Origin: a virus
IMG/VR virus record: IMGVR_UViG_3300012920_007377
Coordinates: 1 to 32,052 of that record
Direction: 5' to 3' (one strand)
DNA: 32,052 nucleotides
Part shown: piece after piece, positions 1,362 to 30,485 of the stretch
Numbering within the stretch: position 1 is the stretch's first letter
How the letters are laid out: every line of letters starts with the position of its first letter
Notes under the pieces: generated by a model
Told to the model about the DNA's origin: nothing
The model's input: the letters and a program-made list of their open reading frames with translations, nothing else
Databases searched by the model: none
Position numbers and translations under genes: made by a program

Positions 1362-1465
1362 AATCCTAAACTCCACATCCATATAGGTATTACAATAAAA
1401 TGTAGTGCCAAACACAAAAATATCATTAACTTAACTGTTAACATATTATTGTTTTTGTTGCTCAT
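1358..1465 (-). CDS. 35-aa single-span membrane peptide
   Basis: The peptide starts MSNKNNNMLTVKLMIF and continues with one hydrophobic stretch (residues 12-30), ending WSLGL. Its ATG overlaps the stop of the topoisomerase medium subunit (ATGA, 1462-1465) and its own TGA overlaps the next ATG (1358-1361). Such perfect double coupling suggests a real gene. No family recognised. Confidence 0.55.
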   Translation of the reverse strand: MSNKNNNMLTVKLMIFLCLALHFIVIPIWMWSLGL

Positions 1466-6326: not shown

Positions 6327-6496
6327 TCTGTGTCTAGGGGATCCTGTTTTTTTACATTGCCTTTGTGTCCGCAATGAGGACAATAAAGTTGCAGTCTATC
6401 TATACAGAGTTTATCCTCCATTGTAGCATATGTAAACCAATTGCTACATTTACTGCATGTTAAGTGCCAAATTATTTCTTTGACTGCATTGAACAT
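6323..6496 (-). CDS. 57-aa zinc-ribbon protein
   Basis: The peptide MFNAVKEIIWHLTCSKCSN... has two CxxC knuckles, CSKC (14-17) and CPHC (39-42), spaced as in a zinc ribbon, then a Lys-rich tail. Its stop overlaps the dioxygenase start as ATGA. No clear ribosome-binding site; a late-promoter motif CATAAATAA lies 9-15 bases upstream (6505-6511). Partner or nucleic-acid target unknown. Confidence 0.65.
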   Translation of the reverse strand: MFNAVKEIIWHLTCSKCSNWFTYATMEDKLCIDRLQLYCPHCGHKGNVKKQDPLDTE

Positions 6497-6504
6497 TTCA
6501 ATGT

Positions 6505-6511
6505 TATTTAT
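6505..6511 (-). promoter_or_regulatory. Late-promoter-like motif ATAAATA
   Basis: Minus strand ATAAATA, between tRNA-Gly and the zinc-ribbon start. It matches the T4 late consensus TATAAATA at seven of eight positions. Confidence 0.4.
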
Positions 6512-6515
6512 GGTA

Positions 6516-6589
6516 TGGAGCGGGTACCCGGAATCGAACCGAGGTCTTTGGCTTGGAAGGCGATTGTAATACCATTATACTATACCCGC
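6516..6589 (-). tRNA. tRNA-Gly (UCC)
   Basis: 74 nt with encoded CCA. Acceptor GCGGGTA pairs with TACCCGC, anticodon loop CTTCCAA carries TCC, and the T arm is CTCGG-TTCGATT-CCGGG. Reads GGA/GGG codons. Confidence 0.95.
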
Positions 6590-6596
6590 AACACGG

Positions 6597-6803
6597 CTAT
6601 TCGAAATACTTTTCAATCATTTCGAGTCGATCGCTTGCCGCTGCCATTTTATCAAGTTCAGCTATGATTGCTTCTGTAACATCACTATGTTCGCCGATAC
6701 CTGCTGGCATGGCTCTATAGACTTCAATGTTTGCTTTATGCACTGCAATCTCGCCTTCTGCTTGCTTACGAGCAGCTTCAATTAATGCTTCTCCAACTTT
6801 CAT
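6597..6803 (-). CDS. Conserved small marine-phage protein, unknown
   Basis: 68 aa, almost entirely helical: MKVGEALIEAARKQAEGEIA, then AMPAGIGEHSDVTEAI and a C-terminal ELDKMAAASDRLEMIEKYF. Proteins with this HSDV/T-EAI-x-ELDK pattern are frequent in T4-like cyanophages, from memory. AGAGGAA site. Its stop is seven bases before tRNA-Gly. Confidence 0.75.
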   Translation of the reverse strand: MKVGEALIEAARKQAEGEIAVHKANIEVYRAMPAGIGEHSDVTEAIIAELDKMAAASDRLEMIEKYFE

Positions 6804-6814
6804 ACTGTTTCCTC

Positions 6815-7315
6815 TTATTCGTGTTCACCACCAGGATCATCATGATCCAGCAAAACCTTTTCGCCATTTATCCACAAATTACGTCGAGTGCGACTTACAC
6901 TGTGATACCCAGGGCGCAGGCTAAAAAGTTTTGGATTCCTTTTTGCTGTTTCAAATGTACCTACTGTAACTGCAATAGCCGCGAGTACTATCATGTGTGC
7001 AATTGCGCTAACGCCAAACACAATGAAACTACTCAAATACATACTGAAAACAATACACCACATCCATGCTAAAATTTGCAATACCATATGGCGTGTACTC
7101 GTATCTGGAATATGTCGTAGTGGATTCCTGTCGGCGTCCATTACACTAGTCCAGCATTCGTATACCCATTCCTTCATACTGAAGACTCCTTGTTCAAATG
7201 TTACTTTTTTTGGATAATGCGCATCTGCGGTATCCCTAAAATCTATAGCATCATAAATGTTATAAAACTTTTGACTTACTTTGCTATCTCTAAAATACGC
7301 AGTTACTTTGTACAT
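6815..7315 (-). CDS. Two-span membrane protein, unknown
   Basis: 166 aa from MYKVTAYFRDS (GGAG site; a longer frame would begin inside tRNA-Leu). The N-terminal 80 residues are soluble (SKVSQKFYNIYDAIDFRDTAD...), then two adjacent hydrophobic spans (about 82-103 and 107-125), then a basic and acidic tail ending DHDDPGGEHE. The N-terminal part resembles small proteins that take in sequence-encoded metadata in no known way; no family recognised. Confidence 0.65.
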   Translation of the reverse strand: MYKVTAYFRDSKVSQKFYNIYDAIDFRDTADAHYPKKVTFEQGVFSMKEWVYECWTSVMDADRNPLRHIPDTSTRHMVLQILAWMWCIVFSMYLSSFIVFGVSAIAHMIVLAAIAVTVGTFETAKRNPKLFSLRPGYHSVSRTRRNLWINGEKVLLDHDDPGGEHE

Positions 7316-7330
7316 TACATTCTCCAATTT

Positions 7331-7415
7331 TGGTGCGAGTAGAGGGACTTGAACCCCCACGTCTTGCGACACTAGAACCTAAATCTAGCGTGTCTACCAA
7401 TTTCACCATACTCGC
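7331..7415 (-). tRNA. tRNA-Leu (UAG)
   Basis: 85 nt including CCA; acceptor GCGAGTA, anticodon loop TTTAGGT, long variable arm as expected for leucine. First of a cluster of four tRNA genes transcribed from a promoter at 7710-7738. Confidence 0.93.
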
Positions 7416-7418
7416 ATA

Positions 7419-7494
<76 letters not shown>

Positions 7495-7504
7495 ACTGGT
7501 TTAT

Positions 7505-7512
7505 TATTTATA
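7505..7512 (-). promoter_or_regulatory. Late-promoter-like motif TATAAATA inside the tRNA cluster
   Basis: Minus strand TATAAATA, exact match to the T4 late consensus, between the Trp-type and Thr tRNAs. It could add late transcription of tRNA-Thr and tRNA-Leu and of the membrane-protein gene beyond. Confidence 0.45.
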
Positions 7513-7516
7513 AATT

Positions 7517-7601
7517 TGGCACAGGTGGAGGGATTCGAACCCACTCAGCTAAAGCACTGGTTTTGGAGACCAGCCTACCTCTCCTACTGTAGCGCACCTG
7601 C
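7517..7601 (-). tRNA. tRNA-Trp (CCA) with unusual long variable region
   Basis: 85 nt including CCA. Acceptor GCAGGTG/CACCTGT, anticodon stem CTGGT/ACCAG around loop CTCCAAA, so anticodon CCA. Discriminator base G73 fits tryptophan. Oddities: a 12-nt variable region (normal Trp has 5), a 10-nt D loop, C rather than T at position 8, and a T-T mismatch in the T stem (GTGGG/CCCTC). The core around the anticodon is Trp-like while the overall frame is that of a class II tRNA. Confidence 0.8.
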
Positions 7602-7607
7602 GTATTA

Positions 7608-7697
7608 TGGCGGAGGATGTGGGAGTCGAACCCACTCTACGCTTATACACGTAGTACGGATTAGCAATCCGCTGCATTACCGTCCTGCCCATCCTCC
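7608..7697 (-). tRNA. tRNA-Ser (GCU)
   Basis: 90 nt including CCA; acceptor GGAGGAT/ATCCTCC, anticodon loop TTGCTAA, long variable arm (TACTACG...CGTAG stem) as normal for serine. Promoter-proximal member of the cluster. Confidence 0.94.
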
Positions 7698-7709
7698 TAT
7701 TAAGTTACT

Positions 7710-7738
7710 AATATAAGGCAAACACGGTTGGAAGTCAA
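7710..7738 (-). promoter_or_regulatory. Sigma70-type promoter for the Ser-Trp-Thr-Leu tRNA cluster
   Basis: Minus strand TTGACT (7733-7738), 17-bp spacer, TATATT (7710-7715). The -35 box touches the TAG stop of the 7739-7933 gene. Start of transcription would be about ten bases before the serine tRNA. Confidence 0.7.
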
Positions 7739-7933
7739 CTACTTTTTTAATTTAAAATAGATAAACTCTTCGCCAGCTTCATTACGACTTGTAATTGCTG
7801 GAGATCCATCTGGAATTGTCTTACCAATATAATGCCAGTTGTGTCCTGCTTTTACTTGTTTGTCAGCAGTAGCAAAAAATTCTGCATTATCTTGGAAAAA
7901 TAATCCTGTCATTAAAACTAGAACTATACTCAT
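7739..7933 (-). CDS. Small exported or membrane-anchored protein, unknown
   Basis: 64 aa with hydrophobic N-terminus MSIVLVLMTGLFFQD, then a hydrophilic part with WHYIGKTIPDGSPAI and a Lys-rich end FIYFKLKK. TAAGGAG site. Upstream lies a minus-strand ATAAATA motif (7958-7964). No family recognised. Confidence 0.65.
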   Translation of the reverse strand: MSIVLVLMTGLFFQDNAEFFATADKQVKAGHNWHYIGKTIPDGSPAITSRNEAGEEFIYFKLKK

Positions 7934-7957
7934 TTTATTCTCCTTAAAGTATGTATA

Positions 7958-7964
7958 TATTTAT
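7958..7964 (-). promoter_or_regulatory. Late-promoter-like motif ATAAATA
   Basis: Minus strand AGTCAATAAATATATA, with the core 25 bases before the 7933 start; the same 16-base string occurs on the plus strand upstream of the 23649 gene. Confidence 0.45.
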
Positions 7965-7971
7965 TGACTAA

Positions 7972-7993
7972 GGGGGCAAGTTGCCCTGCCCCC
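7972..7993 (-). repeat. GC-rich hairpin after the outer-membrane protein gene
   Basis: GGGGGCA (7972-7978) pairs with TGCCCCC (7987-7993); a nested alternative GGGCA-AGT-TGCCC is also possible. No T run follows on the minus strand, whereas AATTTGTTTTC follows on the plus strand. A transcript-end or processing structure is possible. Confidence 0.5.
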
Positions 7994-8030
7994 AATTTGT
8001 TTTCTAGTAAAAATAATCTTTTCAGTATTT

Positions 8031-8429
8031 TTAGAAGCTAAATGACACACCTACTGTGATTTCATTGCGATCTTCTGCGTTGAAATCGTATGATGTCTCT
8101 GCATATGCTTTTGCACTGTCGCTTATTTGATAATCCATTCCCATTTCTAATAATGGTAACTGGCCGTCGTCTAACATATTCATAATAGCAAGATCATCAC
8201 CACTTGCGTGGTCTGTTTCATAAACAGTGATTGGTGATTCTGCCCATAAACTTAATGGACCAGCAACGTCCCAACGTACTTCTGGTTCTACTGTAATATG
8301 GTTAGTTCCTGCTTCCACTTTGTGAAATGCTTTTGCTTCTGTGTTTAGTGATACACCATTCCCAAGCTCTGCCGCTGAAACTGATGTTGCTGCAAATAGT
8401 GCAACAATTGCTAATAATGTTGAACGCAT
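8031..8429 (-). CDS. Small outer-membrane beta-barrel-like protein
   Basis: 132 aa with a signal peptide MRSTLLAIVALFAATSVSAA cut before ELGNG, then alternating beta strands (VEPEVRWDV, LSLWAESPITVY, LLEMGMDYQI, AKAYAETSYDF) and the terminal strand ITVGVSFSF. A final Phe on an amphipathic strand is the recognition signal of outer-membrane proteins. About 112 mature residues would form a very small barrel or barrel fragment. AAAGGAAA site. A phage copy could modify the host surface, for example to block superinfection, but this is inference. Confidence 0.7.
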   Translation of the reverse strand: MRSTLLAIVALFAATSVSAAELGNGVSLNTEAKAFHKVEAGTNHITVEPEVRWDVAGPLSLWAESPITVYETDHASGDDLAIMNMLDDGQLPLLEMGMDYQISDSAKAYAETSYDFNAEDRNEITVGVSFSF

Positions 8430-9404: not shown

Positions 9405-9454
9405 TTGCGTACTCCTTTCATCAGTTGACGTAGTATTTACACAGGCTAATAATG

Positions 9455-9598
9455 TTAGCGCAAATTAAGTACATTTTTATACATAATGCGCAACTGTTTT
9501 TCTACATTACTCCAATATTGTTTTCCCCATTCACTAGTGCAAGTATTGTATGCTTTTTTACAGTTCATAATTAATTTGGTTGCTCTTTGTTTTGTCAT
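9455..9598 (-). CDS. 47-aa basic protein, unknown
   Basis: Starts MTKQRATKLIMNCKKAYNTC. The 9598 start is chosen for its CAGGAGG site and the ATGA overlap with the 37-aa membrane peptide. Two Cys and many Lys/Arg and aromatic residues. No family recognised. Confidence 0.55.
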   Translation of the reverse strand: MTKQRATKLIMNCKKAYNTCTSEWGKQYWSNVEKQLRIMYKNVLNLR

Positions 9599-9708
9599 GT
9601 TAATCCTCCTGTAATTAAATAAAAAATCCAATTTAGTACTAAAGTAGCACTTATAATAATTACTATCATTGCTAATAGCATAACGGCTTCGTTGGGTTCG
9701 TAATCCAT
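9595..9708 (-). CDS. 37-aa single-span membrane peptide
   Basis: Starts MDYEPNEAVMLLAMIVIIIS; one transmembrane segment spans residues 9-32. GAGGAAA site; stop overlaps the next gene start as ATGA. Diverges from the 9730 gene with only 21 bases between. Confidence 0.55.
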   Translation of the reverse strand: MDYEPNEAVMLLAMIVIIISATLVLNWIFYLITGGLT

Positions 9709-9717
9709 GTTTCCTCA

Positions 9718-9724
9718 CTAAATA
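9718..9724 (+). promoter_or_regulatory. Late-promoter-like motif CTAAATA
   Basis: CTAAATA on the plus strand, six bases before the ATG at 9730. With late start sites a few bases downstream of this motif, the mRNA would be almost leaderless. Confidence 0.45.
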
Positions 9725-9729
9725 ATAAT

Positions 9730-10170
9730 ATGAAAGACGAATACGTAAATGCCTTTCACGATGTTATTAAAGAAACTACAGAAACACGTGGTTATAGCAT
9801 TCCTGTAGATGTAGAAGCCTATCTCGTTATGCTTCTAAGTAGTTATGTTGAACGCACAGATTTTTTACCTAATCCAAGTTTTGCAGAACAACATATTAAA
9901 TTAACACACAATAAACCTTATCATGCTAAAGAGCTTGGCGATGTGTGCCTTTTTGTAACAGGCGTTTTTCCAGATTATGGCACTAAGGCTGGATTGCCTA
10001 ATGAATACTTTCAAAATATAGGACGTAATAGTTATCACGTTGCTAGCATAAAATTAAACACGGAATTATTTTCCGTGCTTTGTAAACATTTTCCACTTGT
10101 AAGTAACATTTTAAAAAGTGCTACTGGTAATCATAAAACTCAAAAAATAGTAGAACATTTATTAGGATAG
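9730..10170 (+). CDS. Conserved hypothetical protein
   Basis: 146 aa, MKDEYVNAFHDVIKETTETR. No signal peptide or membrane span. Mixed alpha/beta; C-terminal half contains GRNSYHVASIKLNTELFSVL. No ribosome-binding site; it may be read from a leaderless late mRNA. Stop is one base before the 3' end of convergent tRNA-Leu. No family recognised. Confidence 0.65.
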   Translation: MKDEYVNAFHDVIKETTETRGYSIPVDVEAYLVMLLSSYVERTDFLPNPSFAEQHIKLTHNKPYHAKELGDVCLFVTGVFPDYGTKAGLPNEYFQNIGRNSYHVASIKLNTELFSVLCKHFPLVSNILKSATGNHKTQKIVEHLLG

Positions 10171-10171
10171 T

Positions 10172-10255
10172 TGGTGCGCCCACCCGGACTCGAACCGGGA
10201 CGCCATAAGCGACAGATTTTAAGTCTGTTGTGTCTACCTATTCCACCATGGGCGC
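10172..10255 (-). tRNA. tRNA-Leu (UAA)
   Basis: 84 nt including CCA; acceptor GCGCCCA/TGGGCGC, anticodon loop CTTAAAA, class II variable arm. Second leucine tRNA in the window, reading UUA/UUG, codons common in this AT-rich genome. Confidence 0.94.
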
Positions 10256-10261
10256 AATCAA

Positions 10262-10540
10262 CTACTTGGGCTCTTTACCCGTAATTGCTGTCATTTTCTT
10301 GATGATTCCTGTAACTGCTGTTTCAGTTAACCAACCCTTTACAGTATCACCTTCCTGTGTAATACCAGGTAACTCTACCATATTTGCGCCTTGGAAAACA
10401 CCAATCTCATAAAGTCCTGCACTGCCACCATAACTTCCTTCATGACATACTACACTTAATTGATACTTTCCAAAGTTCAACAAGGCAGATTTGCCTTTAG
10501 GTATATGCTGTTCTGTAAATTTTATATCTTCAAACTGCAT
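10262..10540 (-). CDS. Conserved marine-phage protein, unknown
   Basis: 92 aa from MQFEDIKFTEQHIPKGKSAL; GGAGG site; start forms TAATG with the 56-aa membrane gene. Strand-rich with LNFGKYQLSVVCHEGSYGG and a C-terminal helix GWLTETAVTGIIKKM. The pattern is common in T4-like cyanophages from memory, without assigned function. Confidence 0.7.
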   Translation of the reverse strand: MQFEDIKFTEQHIPKGKSALLNFGKYQLSVVCHEGSYGGSAGLYEIGVFQGANMVELPGITQEGDTVKGWLTETAVTGIIKKMTAITGKEPK

Positions 10541-10710
10541 TATAAACCTCCAAAATACCATACTAGTACGGCACATACTACTATGAACGGTGCATACTGA
10601 AATCCTAACTTAGCAAAGCCAATCAAAATACCAACTACTACACCTAACATTACACCTATGATTGCAAGTATTTGCAAACTTTGCCAGGCTAAATCAAATT
10701 CTCCGCCCAT
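10540..10710 (-). CDS. 56-aa two-span membrane protein
   Basis: Starts MGGEFDLAWQSLQILAIIGV; hydrophobic spans about 11-32 and 40-55, ending VWYFGGL. TAATG overlaps at both ends (10710 and 10540) place it firmly in the operon. No family recognised. Confidence 0.6.
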   Translation of the reverse strand: MGGEFDLAWQSLQILAIIGVMLGVVVGILIGFAKLGFQYAPFIVVCAVLVWYFGGL

Positions 10711-10964
10711 TATACAGGCACTCTATAAACACGAACTGCACCACTAGCAAGGCGAACTGTCTGAAATTTTACATCAGGATTCTTTTTCATATACCTATAA
10801 CATGCACTTGCAGTACGATTACCACCGCCACTGTTCCGTTTAGCATTAACGTCATTTGCAGGTACATCAAAATAATGACCTACTTTAATTTTATCAAAGG
10901 GAAATTTATTTTTAGGATCCTTTTTGAGATCCATTGGTGTCCCTTTACTAACTTTATATTGCAT
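10710..10964 (-). CDS. Conserved small phage protein, possible DNA-binding-like fold
   Basis: 84 aa with AAGGAGA site. FPFDKIKVGHYFDVPANDVN, then RNSGGGNRTASACYRYMKKN and a final strand VRLASGAVRVYRVPV. The FPFDKxxVGxYFDVP...YxxKN...YRV arrangement recurs in T4-like phage small proteins and superficially resembles domains with a basic helix between strands. Function unknown. Confidence 0.7.
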   Translation of the reverse strand: MQYKVSKGTPMDLKKDPKNKFPFDKIKVGHYFDVPANDVNAKRNSGGGNRTASACYRYMKKNPDVKFQTVRLASGAVRVYRVPV

Positions 10965-14799: not shown

Positions 14800-16854
14800 T
14801 CATTTGCTTGATGCGATAAAGACTCCGTTCCAGTCTTTGGGGAGGTCTTGCGTTTGCATGTAAGCACAACGTTCCATCCACATATCGTAATATCCATCAA
14901 TTTGTCCATCAAACTTTCCTTTGTTTAATGCACACAATTCGCTAGCACGTTTAAAGTCTTGTGCCTTGTAATGTGTGTGCATTAAATCATGTATTTCTCT
15001 GCTTTGTTCATATTGTGCTTTGTATTTTCCAGGATTGTCTAATACTGTGTATATACTAAGTCCAACACTTTTACCTTTTACTTGTAAGTCATCAACTTTA
15101 AGGAAAAAGAAATCATCTTTTGTATGTTTATATGTGGCTTCGCCTACTAGTAACACACATCCATATTCTTTACACTTGCTTTCGATACGGGCGGCTGAGC
15201 TGACGCTGTCCCCCAGTACATCATAACTGTGCCTTGCTGTTGACCCCATTTCTCCAATGTACCCAAGTCCGGAATTAATACCTGCGCCCATTCCAACTGG
15301 AGGCCTACCTTCGCTAGTAATCTTTTCATTAAATTTCTCCACTGCTTTTAGCATGTCGAGTCCACATTGCACCGCTGTTCGTGGGTGCTGTGGATCATCT
15401 ATAGGAGCATTGTGTATGTGCATACTTGCATCTCCTATATACTTAATTATCATTCCGTTGCTGTCTAAAACGGGCTGAGTAATAGCGTCCATGTATCCGT
15501 TCATAACTTTCGTCAATCCCTTTACATCATCTCCAAAACTTTCGCCCAGTGGTGTAAACCCACGCAAGTCACTAAAAACTATGCTTACTTCTTTTTTAAC
15601 CCCTTCTTTGATAAGTGCTGGATTTTCCTGTAGCATTTTAACTACAGTAGGACTTGCATAACCTGCAAACTGCTTTTTAATTGCTTGTTTCTGTAAAAAT
15701 TCATCTAAAAACTTTACAATGTAACGCAATAGTCCTACAACTACAATAAATGCAGCTGGTATAAATCCATCTACTAATATATTTTGTGTTTCAAACATAT
15801 AGTAACTTGTGTAAACAATACCGCCTGTACTGCCTACAAAAAATATTAATCCTATATAAGTCCAACGTGCTAATAATATTACCAGCAATCCTATTATTAC
15901 AATAGCGGCTAATTCTGCCCATGCTTCTGCATCTGGATGTCTGCTAATATTACTTTCATTAAATACTGTACCCAACAAAACTGCTTGCATTTCGTGTCCA
16001 TAAACACTACCTGCGGCTGTTGCAATTGGTTGTGTTGTTCCTGCCGCTGTTGGGCCTACAAATACAATACCTCCTTCAAAGTCGTCAGGTAAACTTAATG
16101 CACTAAGACTAGTACTACGCTGACTCCAGTCTATCCAAACACGCCCTAAATTATCTGTTTGTAAAAATCCATATTGTGGAATACGTAACTTGTCTACTCC
16201 TAGTGGATTTAATTTTATTTGGAAACTTGGATCTCCAGCAAGCACTCGCAACACTTCCATTGTAACATTAGGATACAAAGTATCTCCGCTGTTTAGCACA
16301 AGTGGTGCTCTACGTGTAACACCATCTAATTCAGGAAACGTGTTTATAATACCTGCGCCTACTGCTTTGTTTTCAAGTATAGGCACATTTGCAATAATAC
16401 CTGGCATACTTGGAATAAGGTCTCTGTACTGTGGATTAATAACTGCCGCACCAGGATTAATGGGCTCATTTTTACCTTGTGAACTACCTAGCATACTTAA
16501 AACAACAGGATAGTCTTGCATTAATTGTGCAAGTTCTAGATCCTGTCCACTGCGATCTGTTTCGCTCATTAATACATTAAACACAACAAGTCCTGCATTG
16601 CGTTCGTATAATTGTTTGATTAAATCAGCATAATCGCCACGTGGAAACGGCCACTGTCCATATTGATTTATTGTGGGTTCATCTATGTTAACAGTATAAA
16701 TGTTGTTTAACATAGGCTCTTGGTTCAATATTAGTGTATCAAAATATCTTAATCTTAGACTTTCTACAAAATTAAAGTTAGAATAGAATGTCCAACTAAG
16801 TAATACCAATGCAACTACACTGTATATTGGACTTAGTAAAAGTTTCTTTACCAT
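14800..16854 (-). CDS. CHASE2 sensor fused to class III adenylate-cyclase-like domain
   Basis: 684 aa. N-terminal span (10-26), extracytoplasmic CHASE2 domain (about 35-300: TVNIDEPTINQYGQWPFPR, GGIVFVGPTAAG, VYGHEMQAVLL), three spans (about 312-385), then a class III nucleotide cyclase (about 420-610). Metal aspartates D429 (VFSDLRGFT) and D475 (KYIGDASM), adenine-selecting K471 and D545, and R556 are present, but the transition-state Asn of the usual VNxAxR motif is Ser (VSSAAR, S552). Activity may therefore be reduced or altered. Last gene of the curli-like operon; FecR proteins and CHASE2 cyclases occur together in bacteria, so it may sense the surface module and signal through cAMP. AAAGGAA site. 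Confidence 0.88.
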   Translation of the reverse strand: MVKKLLLSPIYSVVALVLLSWTFYSNFNFVESLRLRYFDTLILNQEPMLNNIYTVNIDEPTINQYGQWPFPRGDYADLIKQLYERNAGLVVFNVLMSETDRSGQDLELAQLMQDYPVVLSMLGSSQGKNEPINPGAAVINPQYRDLIPSMPGIIANVPILENKAVGAGIINTFPELDGVTRRAPLVLNSGDTLYPNVTMEVLRVLAGDPSFQIKLNPLGVDKLRIPQYGFLQTDNLGRVWIDWSQRSTSLSALSLPDDFEGGIVFVGPTAAGTTQPIATAAGSVYGHEMQAVLLGTVFNESNISRHPDAEAWAELAAIVIIGLLVILLARWTYIGLIFFVGSTGGIVYTSYYMFETQNILVDGFIPAAFIVVVGLLRYIVKFLDEFLQKQAIKKQFAGYASPTVVKMLQENPALIKEGVKKEVSIVFSDLRGFTPLGESFGDDVKGLTKVMNGYMDAITQPVLDSNGMIIKYIGDASMHIHNAPIDDPQHPRTAVQCGLDMLKAVEKFNEKITSEGRPPVGMGAGINSGLGYIGEMGSTARHSYDVLGDSVSSAARIESKCKEYGCVLLVGEATYKHTKDDFFFLKVDDLQVKGKSVGLSIYTVLDNPGKYKAQYEQSREIHDLMHTHYKAQDFKRASELCALNKGKFDGQIDGYYDMWMERCAYMQTQDLPKDWNGVFIASSK

Positions 16855-16891
16855 TAATGTATTCCTTTCGGCAACGGTTTACATTAAGTAT

Positions 16892-17212
16892 TTACCATTT
16901 AAATTCGTACCCAAAAACAACTCCTACGTTATCTTCTCCCTCTATTGCAGGTGCAATAAAGAAGTCATCATAAGTTGCTCTCAAGTAAGGCAACACTGGT
17001 GCTGTTGTATAGCCTGTTACTGCGCCTGCTTCCAGACCAATTTCTCCAAACTCCCAGCGTTTGCCTCCGTAAAAACTTACTGCATTTTCACTATTATAGT
17101 ATGCACCTGCTATTGCGCTGTTCTCGGTATAACGCACGTGCGGGTGTATAGCATTATAGTCGTTGTTAAAACCCAAATGTAAACTTAGTGCTAGTCCTAG
17201 TTCAATCATCAT
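16892..17212 (-). CDS. Outer-membrane-barrel-like small protein
   Basis: 106 aa, MMIELGLALSLHLGFNNDYN. Short hydrophobic start without a clear cleavage site, then alternating strands (IHPHVRYTENSAIAGAYYNS, VSFYGGKRWEFGEIGLEAGA, FIAPAIEGEDNVGVVFGYEF) and final KW. Aromatic-ended last strand suggests an outer-membrane beta fold. Overlaps the 48-aa gene by 11 bases. Related-looking proteins occur in cyanophages, from memory. Role in the curli-like operon unknown. Confidence 0.62.
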   Translation of the reverse strand: MMIELGLALSLHLGFNNDYNAIHPHVRYTENSAIAGAYYNSENAVSFYGGKRWEFGEIGLEAGAVTGYTTAPVLPYLRATYDDFFIAPAIEGEDNVGVVFGYEFKW

Positions 17213-17348
17213 AATTTACTGGATTAAACATTTTGTCCCATCTAGGTCCAACTGCTTGCCAGTATTCCTTACTACTATCACTGTATACATTTACACCGTA
17301 TGCTACAAAAAATACAAGAATTAAACATATAACACTACCCTTTAGCAT
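17202..17348 (-). CDS. 48-aa single-span membrane protein
   Basis: Starts MLKGSVICLILVFFVAYGVN, one span (5-20), then SDSSKEYWQAVGPRWDKMFN and PVNYDD. Overlaps the upstream secreted-protein gene by 14 bases and the downstream gene by 11. The conserved-looking tail with WxxVGPRW and NPV suggests it is real. No family recognised. Confidence 0.55.
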   Translation of the reverse strand: MLKGSVICLILVFFVAYGVNVYSDSSKEYWQAVGPRWDKMFNPVNYDD

Positions 17349-17751
17349 CTCTATTATCCCAAGGTGCATTTTCGTAACATCCTGCAGGTAGAGTATCTTT
17401 ATAACTTACTCCTGCTTCGAACCCGCCGGGTGTTTGTTTAATGTATGCACTGTCAAACGGCATTACCCGTGGCTTACCCCAACAGCGATTCATACTCTGT
17501 CCAGGCACTCTGTAACGTGCATTATGTTTTAAGAAGTCTCGTAACTCTTTTAAGTTTTGGGCATTTACTGCCACTCTAAAATCGCTAGCACAAGCCGCGG
17601 CTTTTCTAAAGTCAAAACTATCGAAATTATCGACGCTATAGCCATACTTGGCCAAGCAAAGTTTTGATGCCTCGTTGTTGCTTAACGATTCTGCTGATGC
17701 TGAGGCCACTCCTAACCCTAGCATTAGCACTGTCGCTAATATTGTTTTCAT
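17335..17751 (-). CDS. Secreted Cys-containing protein in curli-like operon
   Basis: 138 aa with signal peptide MKTILATVLMLGLGVASASA cut before ESLSN. Mature part has four Cys (KLCLAKYGYS, AAACASDFRV, SMNRCWGKPR, PAGCYENAPW) likely to pair in the periplasm or outside. It does not resemble CsgE or CsgC. Position between the second curlin-like gene and the CHASE2 end of the operon suggests a role in the same surface module. Function unknown. Confidence 0.65.
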   Translation of the reverse strand: MKTILATVLMLGLGVASASAESLSNNEASKLCLAKYGYSVDNFDSFDFRKAAACASDFRVAVNAQNLKELRDFLKHNARYRVPGQSMNRCWGKPRVMPFDSAYIKQTPGGFEAGVSYKDTLPAGCYENAPWDNRDAKG

Positions 17752-17776
17752 TTTTTTCCACTCTCACTCTTTCTGT

Positions 17777-18559
17777 TCAGTTTTGTACTACGGATACTGA
17801 ACATCCGCCAAATGTTTGACAATTTTGTGTCAAACTATAACTCATAGCACTGCTAGTGCTACTTTGTGTTAAACTTAAATCTGTTCCATAATTACCATCT
17901 AATGTAATTGTTGCTGTATGCCCATATGATTTCTTTTGATGTACAAACACATTGTTATCGTCATTGTTAATAGTCAAATCTAGTGTTTTGTCCTGGTTTG
18001 CTTCTTGCATTACATGTACATTGTTGTCATTACCAGTTATATCTACATCCATATTATGATCGCTTATGCTGTTTTGTGAACGTTGGGATAGTTTTATACT
18101 ATTGTCATTACCATTAACAGACAATTCCATATTATGTCCTCCGTGTTCAACGTTATCATACAACCAATCGTTTGCTGTAATCTTATATCCTTGTCCTAGT
18201 TCCATACTATTGCCTGTTCCTGTTACATCTAAGTCCATTGCGTCTGCATTGCAAAGGCTACCATTATGACATTTTTGTTTTGCAAGCATTGTATTATTGT
18301 TGCCGTCTATAGATAATTCTATTGATGCACCATCTGTTTCTTGGTTAAGTGTAACATCAATATTATCGCCATCTAAACTAACAGGTGCTGTACTCGTGCC
18401 TATAGTGTTATCTTCTCCATCTTGTGTAATAGATAAATTTAGATCGTCCCCTACTTGGTTAATGTAAATATCATTGGAATAAGTTATCGTTGGAACAGCC
18501 ATCATCACACTGAGTAATACTAATCTGATTATTAGTGCTGACCCCCAATTTGTATCCAT
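17777..18559 (-). CDS. Curlin-repeat protein 2 (CsgA/B-like)
   Basis: 260 aa from MDTNWGSALIIRL; the start is uncertain because the frame is open further upstream inside the FecR gene (18586), and MMAVPTITYS at 18505 is also possible. Signal peptide to about TITYS, then mature start NDIYINQVGDDLNLSITQDG. At least seven degenerate repeats with the pattern xLxVxGNDNxxxxxQ (for example LSVNGNDNSIKLSQ and VDITGNDNNVHVMQ), close to the curlin strand-loop-strand Q-x-G-x-N-x5-Q. Mature N-terminus is nearly the same as that of curlin protein 1, so the two are paralogues. Probable amyloid fibre or surface-strand subunit exported by CsgG. Confidence 0.75.
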   Translation of the reverse strand: MDTNWGSALIIRLVLLSVMMAVPTITYSNDIYINQVGDDLNLSITQDGEDNTIGTSTAPVSLDGDNIDVTLNQETDGASIELSIDGNNNTMLAKQKCHNGSLCNADAMDLDVTGTGNSMELGQGYKITANDWLYDNVEHGGHNMELSVNGNDNSIKLSQRSQNSISDHNMDVDITGNDNNVHVMQEANQDKTLDLTINNDDNNVFVHQKKSYGHTATITLDGNYGTDLSLTQSSTSSAMSYSLTQNCQTFGGCSVSVVQN

Positions 18560-19625
18560 AGATTTTAAATTCACTTTGTTGTACATTTAATTCATATCCA
18601 TATTCATCATTCATACGTACTCTTACGTAATTGTTTCCTACTCTATCTTCTCTTTCAAATATCCAGGTTTGTCCATCTTTTTGTAAGTTAATACCAGTTT
18701 CTGCATCAAAGCCTATTGTTGCTCTGTTATTTTGCATAAGAATTGCATTTTGTCTTAAAAGTTCGTCCTCAAATAATCTGCGTAATGCTTCATTTAATTG
18801 ATCTAATATATCGTATAATAGATCTCCTAGTCGCCAGTCCATTTCATCTAGTGCAGTAACCCATAAACTTGCATCATCTAACCAACTGTCACTATCTAAT
18901 AAGTCCACATCTAGCCAATCCAAGCCCAAAAAGTCTGCACGTTTTGCATGCCTATATATAATTTCTTCTGCTTCATCATAAGGATTACGTTTGCGTAATA
19001 TAATCAGATGATTTAGTAATTTTTCGTCTACGTCAATAAGTAGTGGAGGAGAAGGTGGCTGCCAGCGAGTGGTTGTCTGAGTGGATTGAAAGGCTTGATT
19101 CATTACCACTGCCCCAACATCGGTCATCACTTCGATCTCACCTACGTAACACATACCATTTGTGTCACAGCTGGGCAACAGAGTAATCATACTACCACCC
19201 ATCTCATCCACTACCATGACAAAATCCGTACCCCTTACACCGATCGTTGCACTGGGAGTTTGGATTTTGACGTTCTGGCGGCTACGCTTTGCTATTTGTC
19301 CACTAGCATACCTTATACCGCCCAACGTTGCTTTAATTGATAAATTTCCTTTTCCGCTGTTGGGATCATAAACAAATTCATCAATTGTTAGTCTTGCATG
19401 TTCAGTTAAATCTACTCTAGTATCGTCCATAAAATCTAATCGCATGGTGCCTTTGGCTGTAACGGCTGTGTCTTGCATTTCAATACCAACACCATCGCTT
19501 CCAGGAATAGTATCCTTTCCACGTTCGATAGCACCGCTACCTGTCATTTTGCCAATATTACCCGCTGTATTGGCGAACACGGGCGGCACCCATAACAATA
19601 AGATTGTGACGATAACCCAGCGCAT
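18471..19625 (-). CDS. FecR-domain exported protein
   Basis: 384 aa with signal peptide MRWVIVTILLLWVPPVFA. FecR domain at about 40-170: GSDGVGIEMQDTAVTAKGTM, RVDLTEHARLTIDEF and TPSATIGVRGTDFVMVVDEM, the last being the family signature. Two Cys lie in the region after it (PSCDTNGMCYVGE). The C-terminal 190 residues are acidic and then strand-rich, unrecognised. FecR domains normally relay envelope signals; here it sits between two curlin-like genes, one-base TAATG overlap with the first and about 90 bases overlap with the second. Confidence 0.85.
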   Translation of the reverse strand: MRWVIVTILLLWVPPVFANTAGNIGKMTGSGAIERGKDTIPGSDGVGIEMQDTAVTAKGTMRLDFMDDTRVDLTEHARLTIDEFVYDPNSGKGNLSIKATLGGIRYASGQIAKRSRQNVKIQTPSATIGVRGTDFVMVVDEMGGSMITLLPSCDTNGMCYVGEIEVMTDVGAVVMNQAFQSTQTTTRWQPPSPPLLIDVDEKLLNHLIILRKRNPYDEAEEIIYRHAKRADFLGLDWLDVDLLDSDSWLDDASLWVTALDEMDWRLGDLLYDILDQLNEALRRLFEDELLRQNAILMQNNRATIGFDAETGINLQKDGQTWIFEREDRVGNNYVRVRMNDEYGYELNVQQSEFKIYGYKLGVSTNNQISITQCDDGCSNDNLFQ

Positions 19626-20335
19626 TAGTCGCTCTGGGTTATATCTACGTCTTGACTATCTCCGTCAAACGTTGCATTTACTGTTGCATCGTTAACACCA
19701 CTTTGATCTATATCATATGTGCTACCGCCGCCAGTAATGTCAAGTATTACAGTATGTCCAGCACTGTCTCCATTACCATCCATGTCAATGTTTAATGTAT
19801 TACCTTCATCACTATTTGCACTTGTTGTAGCTAAACTATTTGCATTGTTCATTACAACTGTAAGTACTGCACTTGTACCGTCAATATCAGAGTTAATAAT
19901 ATTGTTATCACCTGTTACAGTAAAACTAACTGTTGCACTATCTGCATCCTCATTTTCTCCAATATCAAAGTCAAATGTGTTGTCATTACCAGTTGTTGTT
20001 ATGTTTAATGTTACAGTATCACAATCTCCTGTAGAAGTAGAACTACACTGTAAATCTACTGTGTTAGTGTTACCTGTAAATTGCCAAGTACCAGTGTAAT
20101 CTGTGCCTTTAATTGTTGCCACTATTTCGTTAAAATTACCTGTTTGTGTAATTGCAAAAGTCATATCATCACCAGCCAAAGTCATATCTGCCTGTGATGT
20201 TCCTACTTTGTTATCTTGCCCGTCTTGCGTAATATCTAAATCTAAAGTATCGCCAATTTGATCTATATAAATCTCGTTTGCCAGTACACTTGATCCAGAC
20301 ATTAGCATGAGCATTATTGTTAATATTCTAAGCAT
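19625..20335 (-). CDS. Curlin-repeat protein 1 (CsgA/B-like)
   Basis: 236 aa with signal peptide MLRILTIMLMLMSGSSVLA. Mature part starts NEIYIDQIGDTLDLDITQDG, then repeats such as FAITQTGNFNEIVATI, LNITTTGNDNTFDFDI, SFTVTGDNNIINSDI and ending DVDITQSD. The Q-x-G-x-N and I-x-Q spacing is that of curlin repeats, though degenerate and Asp-rich. Follows csgG after nine bases. Confidence 0.75.
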   Translation of the reverse strand: MLRILTIMLMLMSGSSVLANEIYIDQIGDTLDLDITQDGQDNKVGTSQADMTLAGDDMTFAITQTGNFNEIVATIKGTDYTGTWQFTGNTNTVDLQCSSTSTGDCDTVTLNITTTGNDNTFDFDIGENEDADSATVSFTVTGDNNIINSDIDGTSAVLTVVMNNANSLATTSANSDEGNTLNIDMDGNGDSAGHTVILDITGGGSTYDIDQSGVNDATVNATFDGDSQDVDITQSD

Positions 20336-20344
20336 TTTAGCTCT

Positions 20345-21151
20345 CTACTTTCTGAACTTCCAAAGTCCTTTTCTTTCACCTTCGTATACTAGTTCAACAA
20401 TTCCTGCTTCAATTGCAGCTCGCACTGCATAATTGACTGGTTCATTAACTGAATATCCAGCTTCTGTCTCTACTAGTTTTGTTCCCATGTCGAGGAACTT
20501 AAAAACATCTGCACCGCTTCTATGACTGGCTATTGTCTTTTGCGTGGCAATGCTCATTAATACTCTACCTGTACTGACGCTTACTAGCCTCATACTAACA
20601 GTTACAGTATCTACTCGATACTCAGTCTGAGTACCAATTCCTAAATAACGTGCGCCTGCACCTCCTACTACGTTGTTGCTATCGTATCCTACTATTCCAC
20701 CTTCTAGAATAATACCTGCAAACAACATAGGCTTTAACGGTGTAGGCCCTCTTTTAATTTCTTTTTCATAAACTTCTCGTGTATTACGAATCAATTGACG
20801 TTCTTTAATCAAATGATCCATTCCAATGCGTTCTACAACTTCGAACCAGCCTTCGTTACCTACTGTTTGTAGGCCCTGAATAACCCATACTTCTGCACCT
20901 TGCGTAACTGCACTTGATAGGTTTGCTATTCTGTCGTTGGGTTTTCGTTGTCCAGTTTTGTCAGTAAATCCATATACAGCAATTGTAATCTTTTTGCCTT
21001 CTATAGGAGGAACTGCACTCAACATGTGTTTAACAGGACTATCCTGCCTAGTAGGCGGTTCGCCTATAGGAACACTACGATCTTTGAAATAACTTATGTT
21101 ACTACATCCTGACAGTAGTATAACTGTCAACAACGCAAATAATGTACGCAT
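20345..21151 (-). CDS. csgG: Curli secretion channel lipoprotein CsgG
   Basis: 268 aa (E. coli CsgG is 277). Lipobox LLSGC with acylated Cys16. Conserved CsgG blocks: VYGFTDKTGQRKP, GWFEVVERIGMDHLIKERQL, AGIILEGGIVGYDSNNVVGG, GARYLGIGTQTEYRVDTVTV, LVSVSTGRVLMS, SIATQKTI and a C-terminal GLWKFRK. The known role is a nonameric outer-membrane pore that exports curlin subunits. TAATG overlap with csgF. Confidence 0.94.
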   Translation of the reverse strand: MRTLFALLTVILLSGCSNISYFKDRSVPIGEPPTRQDSPVKHMLSAVPPIEGKKITIAVYGFTDKTGQRKPNDRIANLSSAVTQGAEVWVIQGLQTVGNEGWFEVVERIGMDHLIKERQLIRNTREVYEKEIKRGPTPLKPMLFAGIILEGGIVGYDSNNVVGGAGARYLGIGTQTEYRVDTVTVSMRLVSVSTGRVLMSIATQKTIASHRSGADVFKFLDMGTKLVETEAGYSVNEPVNYAVRAAIEAGIVELVYEGERKGLWKFRK

Positions 21152-21615
21152 TAAAAATTAAACTCCCCAGCACCTGGGATAGTGATAGTGGTTGTAGTTC
21201 CTTCGTCGTCTATAATTTCAAGGGTAATGCTTCCTGTGGTTTCGTCTTTGATCCATGTAATAGTAGAACCTTCAATTTCTGCTGTTCCTGTTGTTGCACA
21301 ATTTGTACTACAATCAGCAAACATTGCATCCACCATCTGTTTAGATAGTGTAGCATAAATTCTAGACTCAACGTTTTTAAGGAATTTGTTTAAAGTAGTA
21401 TTTTCCAGCTCACGCTCAATACGTGCTAGCTCAGACTTTCGCGCATCTGCTAACTCTTTTTTGCGATTAAACTGTAACTGTTCTACACTAAGCACGTGTG
21501 TACTATATCCATTACCGTAATGGAATGCTGGACTTTTAAACTGCCAACTCATCTCACTATGTGCTGATGTAACCACTAGGCAGAAACCTAGCGTCAATAA
21601 TACTAATTTTTTCAC
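21151..21615 (-). CDS. csgF: Curli assembly factor CsgF
   Basis: 154 aa beginning at a GTG codon with GGAGAG upstream. Signal peptide MKKLVLLTLGFCLVVTSAHS, then SWQFKSPAFHYGNGYSTHVL, the counterpart of the CsgF N-terminus that plugs into the CsgG pore. A helical middle (LQFNRKKELADARKSELARI) and a beta C-terminus (EGSTITWIKDETTGSITLEI) follow. First gene of the operon, with CTAAATA 18-24 bases upstream. CsgE is not found in the window. Confidence 0.9.
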   Translation of the reverse strand: MKKLVLLTLGFCLVVTSAHSEMSWQFKSPAFHYGNGYSTHVLSVEQLQFNRKKELADARKSELARIERELENTTLNKFLKNVESRIYATLSKQMVDAMFADCSTNCATTGTAEIEGSTITWIKDETTGSITLEIIDDEGTTTTITIPGAGEFNF

Positions 21616-21632: not shown

Positions 21633-21639
21633 TATTTAG
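21633..21639 (-). promoter_or_regulatory. Late promoter motif CTAAATA for the curli-like operon
   Basis: Minus strand GAGCTAAATACAAACGGAGAG. CTAAATA is the form of the late motif described in T4-like cyanophages. Its place directly before the csgF ribosome-binding site implies late expression of the operon. Confidence 0.55.
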
Positions 21640-22464: not shown

Positions 22465-22493
22465 AATATAGTATTTCTTAGTTTATTTGTCAA
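22465..22493 (-). promoter_or_regulatory. Sigma70-type promoter
   Basis: Minus strand TTGACA (22488-22493), 17-bp spacer, TATATT (22465-22470). The -35 box lies within the last codons of the AlgH-like gene (Leu-Asp-Lys-stop). No operator palindrome. Confidence 0.72.
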
Positions 22494-23034
22494 GTAAAAA
22501 ATTACTTAGATCTTTTGCAGTTTGTCGTATGCCACGATCCCAACTTTGTACAGTATCCATTCTACCATAAAAGTATTCCATTGCGGGTTCTGTGACTACC
22601 CAATTTGGCAAATCAAAAGGAGGCTTTCCTCCTATTTCCAATTCCAGTTGACCCGGTGCCCAAGCACTGTGTCCTAGTATTATCATATAGTCCTTGGGAC
22701 CTTTATTCTCTTGTATGTCTTTAATAATATGTACACCTGGTGTAAAGTGTATTCCATCTATAAGCGTTGCAGTTTTTTTATTATTATAATCTTCACTGTG
22801 CAATACAAATCCAGTTTGTTGTTCTACTGGTCCGCCAAAATGTATTTTTGTATGATCTTTAAGTTTAAGTTGGCTTGCAACAAACTTTGCACGACTTGTA
22901 GGATACTTTTTATTAATTACAAATCCTATAGCACCCTCAGCGTCTTTGCCATGCATAAAGATAACACTTTTGTGAAATATGCCTGTTTTTATATTTGGTA
23001 ATGCTACCAGTAATTTGTTTGTGAACTGATTCAA
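22483..23034 (-). CDS. AlgH/YqgE-like protein (UPF0301, DUF179)
   Basis: 183 aa, starting at a TTG preceded directly by in-frame stops, with only a weak GAGA site. Family landmarks: VALPNIKTGIFHKSVIFMH, GAIGFVINKKYP, HFGGPVEQQTGFVLH and GHSAWAPGQLELEIG. Family members affect alginate and other regulators and redox or nucleotide-linked functions in bacteria; the biochemical role is not settled. TAA lies inside the next promoter. Phage role unknown. Confidence 0.88.
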   Translation of the reverse strand: MNQFTNKLLVALPNIKTGIFHKSVIFMHGKDAEGAIGFVINKKYPTSRAKFVASQLKLKDHTKIHFGGPVEQQTGFVLHSEDYNNKKTATLIDGIHFTPGVHIIKDIQENKGPKDYMIILGHSAWAPGQLELEIGGKPPFDLPNWVVTEPAMEYFYGRMDTVQSWDRGIRQTAKDLSNFLLDK

Positions 23035-23037
23035 TTA

Positions 23038-23268
23038 TTATTTTCTCTTTTTTAGTTTTAACACAAATGATCCCTTATTGGGATTTTGTTGTGTGCAACT
23101 ACTTACCTTTGTATGATTGTATGCCCATATATTTAGTTCACTTTGTATAGTACCATATCCTGTAATAACTCTACAGGTTTTGTGTCCAGCATAATATGCA
23201 TCTGTAATTCTGCTATTAAATACACGCCATGCAGCGTGTACAGTTAATCCATGTAAATCTATCGTCAT
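23038..23268 (-). CDS. Smr-domain protein
   Basis: 76 aa, the bare Smr domain: IDLHGLTVHAAWRVFNSRIT, then CRVITGYGTIQSELNIWAYN, and a basic tail KLKKRK. LDLHG and the GxG loop are the conserved parts; Smr domains bind or nick nucleic acids and some rescue stalled ribosomes. The ATG lies only five bases after the encoded CCA of tRNA-Arg, with no ribosome-binding site visible. The next gene starts four bases after its stop. Confidence 0.85.
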   Translation of the reverse strand: MTIDLHGLTVHAAWRVFNSRITDAYYAGHKTCRVITGYGTIQSELNIWAYNHTKVSSCTQQNPNKGSFVLKLKKRK

Positions 23269-24074: not shown

Positions 24075-24839
24075 ATGGACTTAGATGGCTGGTGTTTTGA
24101 CGACACCAATTTTAATTATAAAAAGGCACACTGGCTAGCAAAACTAGCAGGAATGGCATATGCACAACCGCTAACGGCACGTAAGGCATTAAAAGAAGCA
24201 GGCATTACGGAAAACAAATATTTTGACAAAGAAGGCGCTCAGGCATATGGCATAGAAAAGAATGGTATCATTATCCTTGCATTTAGAGGAACTGAACCTA
24301 CACAAGCCTCAGATTTATTGGCTGATGCCAAAGCATGGCATAAAAAATCACAGTATGGCGGAAGTGTACATGCTGGATTCAGAGGCGAAATAGATAAAAT
24401 ATGGCCACAAATAGAAGAATGGTTAAAGGCACACACAGGCAAACAAATATATGTAACAGGACATAGTCTGGGAGCGGCAATGAGTACACTTGCTACAAGC
24501 CGTTTACCAGCAGGCACAATATGTTATAACTTCGGTTCTCCAAGAGTCGGCAGTCCAAGTTTTAGTAAAGAGTTCGACAAAAAATATGAACTACATCGTT
24601 TTGTAAACAATAATGATGCAGTATGTCGTGTTCCACTTTGGGCAATGTTTTTTAGACATGTTGGAAAACTACACTATATAAACACTTACGGAAATATTAG
24701 AAATGCTACGCCTTGGCAACGCTTTAAAGATAGATTTAGAGGATATAGACAGGCCTGGAAGAAAGGACAAGTGTTTGATAGTTTGTACGACCATAGTATG
24801 GTTGCGTACACAAAACGTATTGGAAATTTTAATGAGTAA
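24075..24839 (+). CDS. Class 3 lipase-family hydrolase
   Basis: 254 aa, cytosolic-looking (no signal peptide). Class 3 lipase pattern: IIILAFRGTE near 65-74, VHAGF at 98-102, nucleophile motif TGHSLGAAM with Ser131, NFGSPRVGS at 152-160, Asp181 in NNNDAV and His240 in YDHSM, giving a Ser-Asp-His triad. Known members cut acylglycerols or phospholipids. Paired with the membrane protein before it and a Met/His membrane peptide after it; membrane damage or lipid recycling late in infection is a reasonable guess. Confidence 0.88.
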   Translation: MDLDGWCFDDTNFNYKKAHWLAKLAGMAYAQPLTARKALKEAGITENKYFDKEGAQAYGIEKNGIIILAFRGTEPTQASDLLADAKAWHKKSQYGGSVHAGFRGEIDKIWPQIEEWLKAHTGKQIYVTGHSLGAAMSTLATSRLPAGTICYNFGSPRVGSPSFSKEFDKKYELHRFVNNNDAVCRVPLWAMFFRHVGKLHYINTYGNIRNATPWQRFKDRFRGYRQAWKKGQVFDSLYDHSMVAYTKRIGNFNE

Positions 24840-29366: not shown

Positions 29367-30485
29367 CTAAGTTGTTCTTAAGGTTGTTGATTCGTAAGTA
29401 CGATTAAATTGATTTGCAACTTGTACAAAGGTTGTACACTTACTCAAGTGCTTGAGTTTAATTGCGCCTGCATATGTACAAGTGCTACGTACACCGCCTA
29501 GTATGTCTTGTAGTGTTTTGCCTACTGCACCTCTATAAGGTACAAGCACTTCTCTACCTTCACTACTGCGGTATTCTTTTAGTCCACCAAAATGTTTTTC
29601 GTTTGCGGCATTACTACTCATGCCATAAAACTGTACAAATTTTTGCTCTTCAAAATAAGGAATAAATGTTCCCTCTGGTGTTTTATATGCTCCGCCTGTG
29701 GCAATATGTTTTGTAACAATAGATCCGCCACCTTCATCGTGTCCAGCAAGCATGCCTCCAAGCATTACAAAATCTGCACCTCCAGCAAAAGCCTTTGCCA
29801 CATCACCAGCGCAAGTACAACCGCCGTCAGCAATAATATGTCCGCCCAATCCATGCGCCGCATCGGCGCACTCAATAACCGCACTAAGTTGGGGATAGCC
29901 CACCCCAGTCTGTATGCGAGTCGTACAAACCGACCCTGGTCCGATTCCGACTTTGACGATGTCTGCTCCATTTAAAATTAACTCCTCAGTCATTTCGCCT
30001 GTAACTACATTACCTGCAATAATTACAACATCAGGATATTGTTCACGAAATTGTTTTACAAAAGCAACAAATCGTTCGCTATAACCGTTTGCTACATCAA
30101 TGCATACATACTTTAGTTTTTCTCCAACTTGTTCGTATACATCTCTAAATTTTGCATGGTCTCTGTCTTGTATACCAATACTCATTGCAACATAGTCTGT
30201 GCGTTCTGGTATATCACTATCAAAGTATGCAACTAAATCTTTTACACTAAGTGTTTTTACTAAACAAGTAAACACTCCGCCAGTTGCTAAAAAGTCTCCC
30301 ATTTCCATTGTGCCAACACCGTCCATGTTGCTAGCCATAATAGGAATACCTTCATAGTCTTGTTTACTGTTACGGAAAGTAAAACGTCTTTCTAATCGCA
30401 CTTCTTTACGACTTCCTAGTGTGCTACGCTTGGGTCTAATCAAGACGTCACTATAGTCCAGCTTCTGGTCCTGTTCTATTCTCAT
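29367..30485 (-). CDS. guaC: GMP reductase (IMPDH/GMPR family)
   Basis: 372 aa; E. coli GuaC is 347. IMPDH/GMPR barrel signatures: [25 protein letters not shown], the catalytic loop [12 protein letters not shown] with Cys187, [43 protein letters not shown] and the FYGMSS motif. No CBS domains. The last three features and the Cys position favour GMP reductase (GMP to IMP with NADPH) over IMP dehydrogenase. A phage enzyme would rebalance purine pools from degraded host RNA. Follows clpS after four bases. Confidence 0.88.

Follow-up and report, generated by a model that had tools for sequence, protein, structure and literature searches.

A candidate curli secretion operon with a FecR/CHASE2-cyclase pair in a T4-like marine phage

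An operon of nine genes on the minus strand

We analysed a 32-kb virus record of a T4-like marine phage (IMG/VR record IMGVR_UViG_3300012920_007377, 32,052 nucleotides, called the window here), which encodes tRNAs and a permuted transfer-messenger RNA of the alphaproteobacterial type. Reading of the open reading frames (ORFs) of the window identified nine genes between positions 21615 and 14800, all on the minus strand and in the same direction, with short overlaps. The order from 5' to 3' is csgF, csgG, curlin-1, fecR, curlin-2, three small genes and a gene for a CHASE2 cyclase (Table 1), and every gene of the overlapping, one-direction run described in the original prediction was found in its place. 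On balance, we favour the view that this operon combines a type VIII (curli) secretion module with a FecR/CHASE2-cyclase sensor pair of the kind found in bacteria. The features on which this view is based can be read from the sequences themselves, and are the gene set, its conserved order, the predicted signal peptides, the lipobox of CsgG, the N-terminal motif of CsgF, the curlin repeats of the family, the tail of FecR and the main cyclase residues.

Table 1. Features of the operon in the window, listed in the direction of transcription
Feature	Position	Strand	Description	Family match (E value)
T4-type late promoter-like motif CTAAATA	21633..21639	-	17 nt upstream of the GTG start of csgF	
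csgF	21151..21615	-	154 residues; predicted signal peptide; conserved CsgF-type N-terminus MSWQFKSPAF (alignment)	Pfam CsgF, 9.8e-13
csgG	20345..21151	-	Predicted outer-membrane lipoprotein pore; lipobox LSGC, invariant Cys16 (alignment)	Pfam CsgG, 6.4e-48
curlin-1	19625..20335	-	Predicted secreted; curlin repeats; length fairly constant in relatives	Pfam Curlin_rpt, 1.4e-3
fecR	18471..19625	-	Predicted secreted FecR-domain protein; C-terminal curlin-like half-repeat NNQISITQ	Pfam FecR, 4.5e-9
curlin-2	17777..18559	-	Predicted secreted; curlin repeats; C-terminal Cys-Cys cap CQTFGGCSVSVVQN; overlaps fecR	Pfam Curlin_rpt, 4.2e-4
Insert gene 1	17335..17751	-	Predicted secreted four-Cys protein; passenger	No family match
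Insert gene 2	17202..17369	-	55-residue single-span membrane protein; accompanies insert gene 1	
Insert gene 3	16892..17212	-	Small PagP-like outer-membrane protein; recurrent at the site	phrog_3600, 3.4e-9
CHASE2 cyclase	14800..16854	-	Periplasmic CHASE2 sensor and class III nucleotide cyclase	CHASE2, 3.4e-36; Guanylate_cyc, 4.6e-17

Conservation of the gene order was assessed in two sets of viral loci, comprising 24 IMG/VR loci with a close CsgG, and the best 80 FecR loci of at least 571 FecR relatives in the virus collection. The core order csgF-csgG-curlin-FecR-curlin-cyclase was kept in both sets (about 100 loci), as far as the contigs reach; the exceptions were a few loci in which the match to the cyclase model lies on the other strand, and two (L026 and L120) with no recognised curlin-2. 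The same core order was seen in the cultured Pelagibacter phage HTVC008M and the Methylophilales phage Melnitz, using tblastn followed by reading of the loci. The genes are not scattered among relatives, and this conservation, along with the model of curlin-1 described below, bears out the earlier impression of what looks like a complete surface system.

CsgF, CsgG and associated genes have been reported in pelagimyophages, where 'sibling capture' was proposed as their role (Zaragoza-Solas et al., 2020; PMC7029224). Wittmers et al. (2022; PMC9599517) described the whole gene set in podo- and myophages, both curlins, FecR and an adenylate cyclase included. They reported that CsgE was missing, that the ancestry was alphaproteobacterial and that the distribution was ocean-wide, with phage curli genes present at every one of the 65 ocean stations surveyed. 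Since the gene set is already described in these two papers, the operon layout is not new; the original prediction was right about CsgG and CsgF in pelagimyophages, and the linkage of FecR, curlins and cyclase that it stressed had been published as well. What is not found in these papers or in the report on Melnitz (PMC9004378) is the secreted FecR with its tail, the origin from two modules, the late motif, the gaps on the host side and the passenger insert.

Secretion pore and late promoter-like motif

The structure of E. coli CsgG (3x2r) matches CsgG of the window with an E value of 3.2e-50 across 266 residues, which is nearly the full length. The Pfam match of the csgF product spans the full model, and when compared to the solved CsgF structure, only the N-terminal ~35 residues of phage CsgF match, and weakly (E = 0.06). 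The constriction Tyr of E. coli CsgG is missing in the phages, and we considered the eyelet as a possible argument for an open pore. However, the residue is also missing in bacterial homologues from Xanthobacteraceae (L040, L043), and because its loss is not specific to phages, no such argument can be drawn.

In the window alone, T4-type late motifs were no commoner than expected by chance (6 found, 9.9 expected), and no TATAAATA was found near csgF in the window. Comparison with relatives, in contrast, revealed such motifs around the start of csgF in 37 of 71, whereas the background frequency was 5.6% of windows, and it is because of this enrichment that the late motif proposed earlier can be upheld. 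The operon is therefore probably expressed late in infection. A search for Rfam riboswitches upstream of the operon found none. Genes for AlgH/YqgE-like and Smr-domain proteins lie upstream of the operon (22483-23268, minus strand) with tRNA genes on both sides, and a YqgE-like gene is also present upstream of csgF in L025.

The curlin proteins

Curlin-2 and curlin-1 of the window score 20.6 and 18.9 bits, respectively, with the Curlin_rpt model, for which the Pfam cut-off is 20.7 bits. Orthologues gave E values of 5.5e-25 (curlin-2 of L017), 2.5e-12 (L014) and 5.2e-8 (HTVC008M), and both curlins of Melnitz are above the cut-off (8.6e-6 for curlin-1, and 1.9e-4). Because several orthologues pass the cut-off clearly, the assignment of the window proteins as curlins stands. 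An AlphaFold2 model of curlin-1, built from an alignment of 14 sequences, showed a regular strand-turn-strand arrangement and was fairly confident (predicted local distance difference test score, pLDDT, 81.6; predicted template modelling score 0.79). Repeated strands were seen in the models of both curlins, with confidence for curlin-1 only.

The start of curlin-2 is most likely at 18559, as judged by relatives, and an alternative start at 18586 was set aside on this comparison. Curlin-2 ranges from 117 to 506 residues in relatives, leaving out one fragment at a contig end, and the Cys cap is found in 67 of 76. A PA14 domain is present on curlin-2 in HTVC008M and L025 only, and we rejected it as a general feature of the protein. 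The variability, the Cys cap and the PA14 cases would suit an outward-facing binder.

A secreted FecR protein with a curlin-like tail

FecR of the window consists of a predicted signal peptide followed by a PF04773 domain only, and has a single, N-terminal hydrophobic segment. Neither an N-terminal cytoplasmic anti-sigma part nor an internal membrane helix was found in this protein by Pfam and hydrophobicity analysis, and a search confined to the nine operon proteins identified no sigma-factor family that could represent a FecI-type extracytoplasmic function sigma factor. The C-terminus of phage FecR ends in N-x-[IV]-x-[IV]-x-Q, like the last strand of both curlins. In the first set of loci the strict form of this motif was present in 13 of 18 FecR-labelled tails, and the five that did not fit were three variants of the window type with a further 12-residue tail and two cut or incomplete ORFs. 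In the larger set, all 57 tails fitted a loose form and 55 the strict form, whereas the strict form was found in 8 of 566 other phage ORFs and in none of 44 FecR proteins from bacteria, although several of these are truncated by the end of the locus. We considered that the motif could be a by-product of the overlap between fecR and curlin-2, and rejected this since it is kept at little or no overlap (L025, L026, L120, L185, L198-L201). An apparent fusion of FecR and curlin in L063 and L082 was also rejected, the 'curlin-like repeats' being low-complexity GQNQG sequence.

Phage FecR is probably a fibre or sensor protein rather than an iron regulator, which suggests that reading the label 'FecR' in phages as an iron regulator is a misreading. 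It has been proposed that CsgG is an uptake pore that admits nutrients, cofactors or siderophores, with FecR as the iron sensor (PMC7029224, PMC9599517). While the name of FecR and a pore that may be open without CsgE would agree with this, FecR does not have the membrane-anchored anti-sigma layout, its relatives in alphaproteobacteria span a wide range of sizes and are often large, some with RTX-type repeats, and the curlins and CsgF are left unexplained. We consider an uptake pore very improbable.

The CHASE2 cyclase and its pairing with FecR in bacteria

The last gene of the operon encodes a putative CHASE2 class III cyclase, classed by its domain architecture only. Asp429, Asp475, Lys471 and Arg556 are invariant in the cyclase alignment; by the roles known for class III cyclases, the two Asp residues would bind metal and Lys471 would be the substrate Lys.

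In eight of 20 alphaproteobacterial FecR neighbourhoods, a protein no more than about 10 kb away matches the phage cyclase model. Matches that extend into the CHASE2 part include L083, L090, L092, L093, L100 and L101, while that in L086 is restricted to the cyclase part. In L090 (G105; 6049-8085, 9405-10919), from a genome belonging to the Pelagibacter family search group, FecR lies beside a CHASE2 protein in which a SpoIIE output replaces the cyclase. As these genomes have only 2-39 matches to the cyclase model each, the closeness of FecR and CHASE2 seems, on these counts, unlikely to be due to chance. Clustering of CHASE2 cyclases with a FecR-domain outer-membrane protein has been reported independently in Campylobacterota (PMC9239204). 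In contrast, neither FecR nor a cyclase was found in the bacterial csg loci L034-L041 and L043. Since the pair exists in bacteria and is absent from the bacterial csg loci examined, the phage appears to have joined two modules.

A variable insert between curlin-2 and the cyclase

The original prediction counted the three small genes that lie between curlin-2 and the cyclase among the components of the system. The trio is absent from HTVC008M, Melnitz and most relatives, where this position has either no gene or different ones, such as other small genes in L004 and L008, and the pair of Cys-protein and small membrane-protein genes, present in about 25 loci, occurs in seven without recognised csg genes in the stretch examined. 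Judged from these comparisons, the three genes are passengers at a variable site. The pair, or the Cys protein alone, lies without nearby csg genes in L105, L106, L107, L110, L115, L125 and L126; in L106, L110 and L126 it adjoins another conserved set of genes for secreted proteins, and L110 carries all three insert genes found in the window, the PagP-like one among them. In L031 (4225-4852), reading by eye identified a 2[4Fe-4S] ferredoxin-like gene and a SufT/MIP18-like gene between curlin-2 and the cyclase.

The product of the third insert gene, earlier called outer-membrane-like, matches a PagP-type phage family, and PagP-like genes are found in 14 of the 80 FecR loci and in L030. Their recurrence beside the operon, the high variability of curlin-2 and a suggestion in PMC9599517 are in line with surface masking or superinfection exclusion, in which a fibre coat or an altered outer membrane would repel competing phages. 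Exclusion is normally an early function, yet late-type motifs are found at csgF in half of the relatives, and we regard this role as unlikely.

Elsewhere, the window encodes type II topoisomerase subunits (gyrase/topoisomerase IV A and B; 1462-4646, minus strand), an IMP dehydrogenase/GMP reductase-like enzyme (29367-30485, minus strand) and, on the strand opposite to the operon, a class 3 lipase-like protein (24075-24839, plus strand).

Proposed mechanism and evidence against it

We propose that, late in infection, the phage would equip the outer membrane with the CsgG pore and CsgF. Both curlin-1 and curlin-2, the latter highly variable, would be exported via CsgG and form a curli-like fibre on the infected cell, as their family membership suggests, and the secreted FecR may cap or dock on the fibre or pore by its own curlin-like C-terminal strand, as its tail motif suggests. 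The FecR domain could then signal to the cyclase in the inner membrane through the periplasmic CHASE2 domain of this enzyme, by analogy with the bacterial pairing, and cyclic nucleotide would be made. We tentatively suggest that the purpose is adhesion around release, by which daughter cells or neighbours would be kept close to the burst ('sibling capture', PMC7029224); this adhesive purpose is the weakest step of the mechanism.

Several observations weigh against this view. Both curlins of the window are marginal, falling slightly below the Curlin_rpt cut-off; the curlin-2 model, predicted from a single sequence, is poor (pLDDT 46); and Foldseek found no significant match in the PDB for either curlin model. 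The PA14 fusion is rare, with none among L102-L208. In place of the transition-state Asn, the cyclases of the window and of the main phage clade have Ser (YDVLGD[AS]VSTAAR), while bacterial relatives and some phages keep Asn. Melnitz cultures are reported to have shown no clumping (PMC9004378), and no fibre has been seen so far. A search for CsgE in the window, eight related phage records and 60 SAR11-family genomes gave no hit, extending what had been noted for the window; CsgE is dispensable for curli expression in E. coli (PMC7029224).

The host side adds to these difficulties. The host of the window phage may be SAR11 or OM43, and our survey covers the former, as 60 genomes of the family of one Pelagibacter metagenome-assembled genome (MAG). 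A cyclic nucleotide monophosphate (cNMP)-binding domain was absent from 58 of the 60, a class III cyclase was also absent from 58, and no cNMP-binding protein was found in the nine phage records. In the two genomes that do have a cyclase (G292:C11 and G255:C1), the contig with the cyclase also carries csgG, at a distance of about 3.5 kb, and these are therefore apparently phage contigs binned with hosts. L028-L033 also look like phage contigs within bacterial MAG records. With cNMP-binding domains nearly absent in hosts and absent in phages, there is no known receptor for the cyclase product in a SAR11-type host.

Published papers disagree on whether fibre genes are present in these phages. 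In the report on Melnitz, csgA/B were stated to be absent and a role in lysis was proposed (PMC9004378). CsgG, ungated without CsgE, would depolarise or breach the outer membrane and help or time lysis, in a pinholin- or secretin-like role, to which the absence of CsgE, the late motif upstream of csgF and an AlphaFold analysis in the Melnitz paper (PMC9004378) lend support. However, the Melnitz record annotates two curlin-repeat proteins, both above the Curlin_rpt cut-off, in conflict with the premise that csgA/B are missing, and a lysis pore leaves two secreted curlins, FecR and a CHASE2 cyclase, in an order kept across about 100 loci, unexplained. Our comparison supports the presence of curlins, and we find a lysis or release pore quite unlikely. 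Of the three functions originally put forward, the retention of the curlins and the sensor favours adhesion over a pore made for lysis only, and superinfection exclusion also has less support.

A more speculative, and in our opinion doubtful, extension of the adhesive-fibre proposal is that FecR is a reporter of the fibre end, its tail joining the growing fibre or pore and its FecR domain controlling the CHASE2 cyclase. This could act as an assembly checkpoint that adds a cyclic nucleotide signal to a SAR11-type cell without its own CRP-type receptor or class III cyclase. If the main proposal is confirmed, the operon would represent a viral amyloid system equipped with a transmembrane sensor of its own. 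The question is also raised of the role of a cyclic nucleotide in SAR11-type cells that apparently have no CRP-type receptor. The new details of the operon make the function of a known phage system testable.

Comparison with known systems

The closest known system is the type VIII secretion/curli cluster of pelagiphages (PMC9599517, PMC7029224), which has the same genes in the same order and no CsgE, and to which the window adds the insert of Cys-protein, small membrane-protein and PagP-like genes. In the main text of PMC9599517, FecR is taken as an iron regulator and nothing is said of CHASE, PA14, late promoters or signal peptides. Both cultured phages are syntenic with the window and lack the three-gene insert, with csgG and the cyclase being 47% and 51% identical in Melnitz, and 51% and 35.5% identical in HTVC008M, where curlin-2 carries PA14. 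Bacterial curli systems (E. coli csgBAC/csgDEFG and the alphaproteobacterial csg loci L034-L036) have CsgG, CsgF and curlin-repeat subunits in common with the phage operon, which differs in having no CsgE, while the bacterial csg loci examined are without FecR and cyclase.

NsrA, an outer-membrane receptor of S. meliloti, itself has a FecR domain. Together with CyaD1, CyaD2 and CyaK it forms a system that signals to an inner-membrane CHASE2 cyclase (PMC7529298, PMC13001267), and in the FecR/CHASE2-cyclase clusters of Campylobacterota (PMC9239204) an outer-membrane or extracytoplasmic protein likewise acts on an inner-membrane CHASE2 cyclase, as proposed here. Unlike in these bacterial clusters, FecR of the phage ends in a curlin-like strand and sits within a curli operon.

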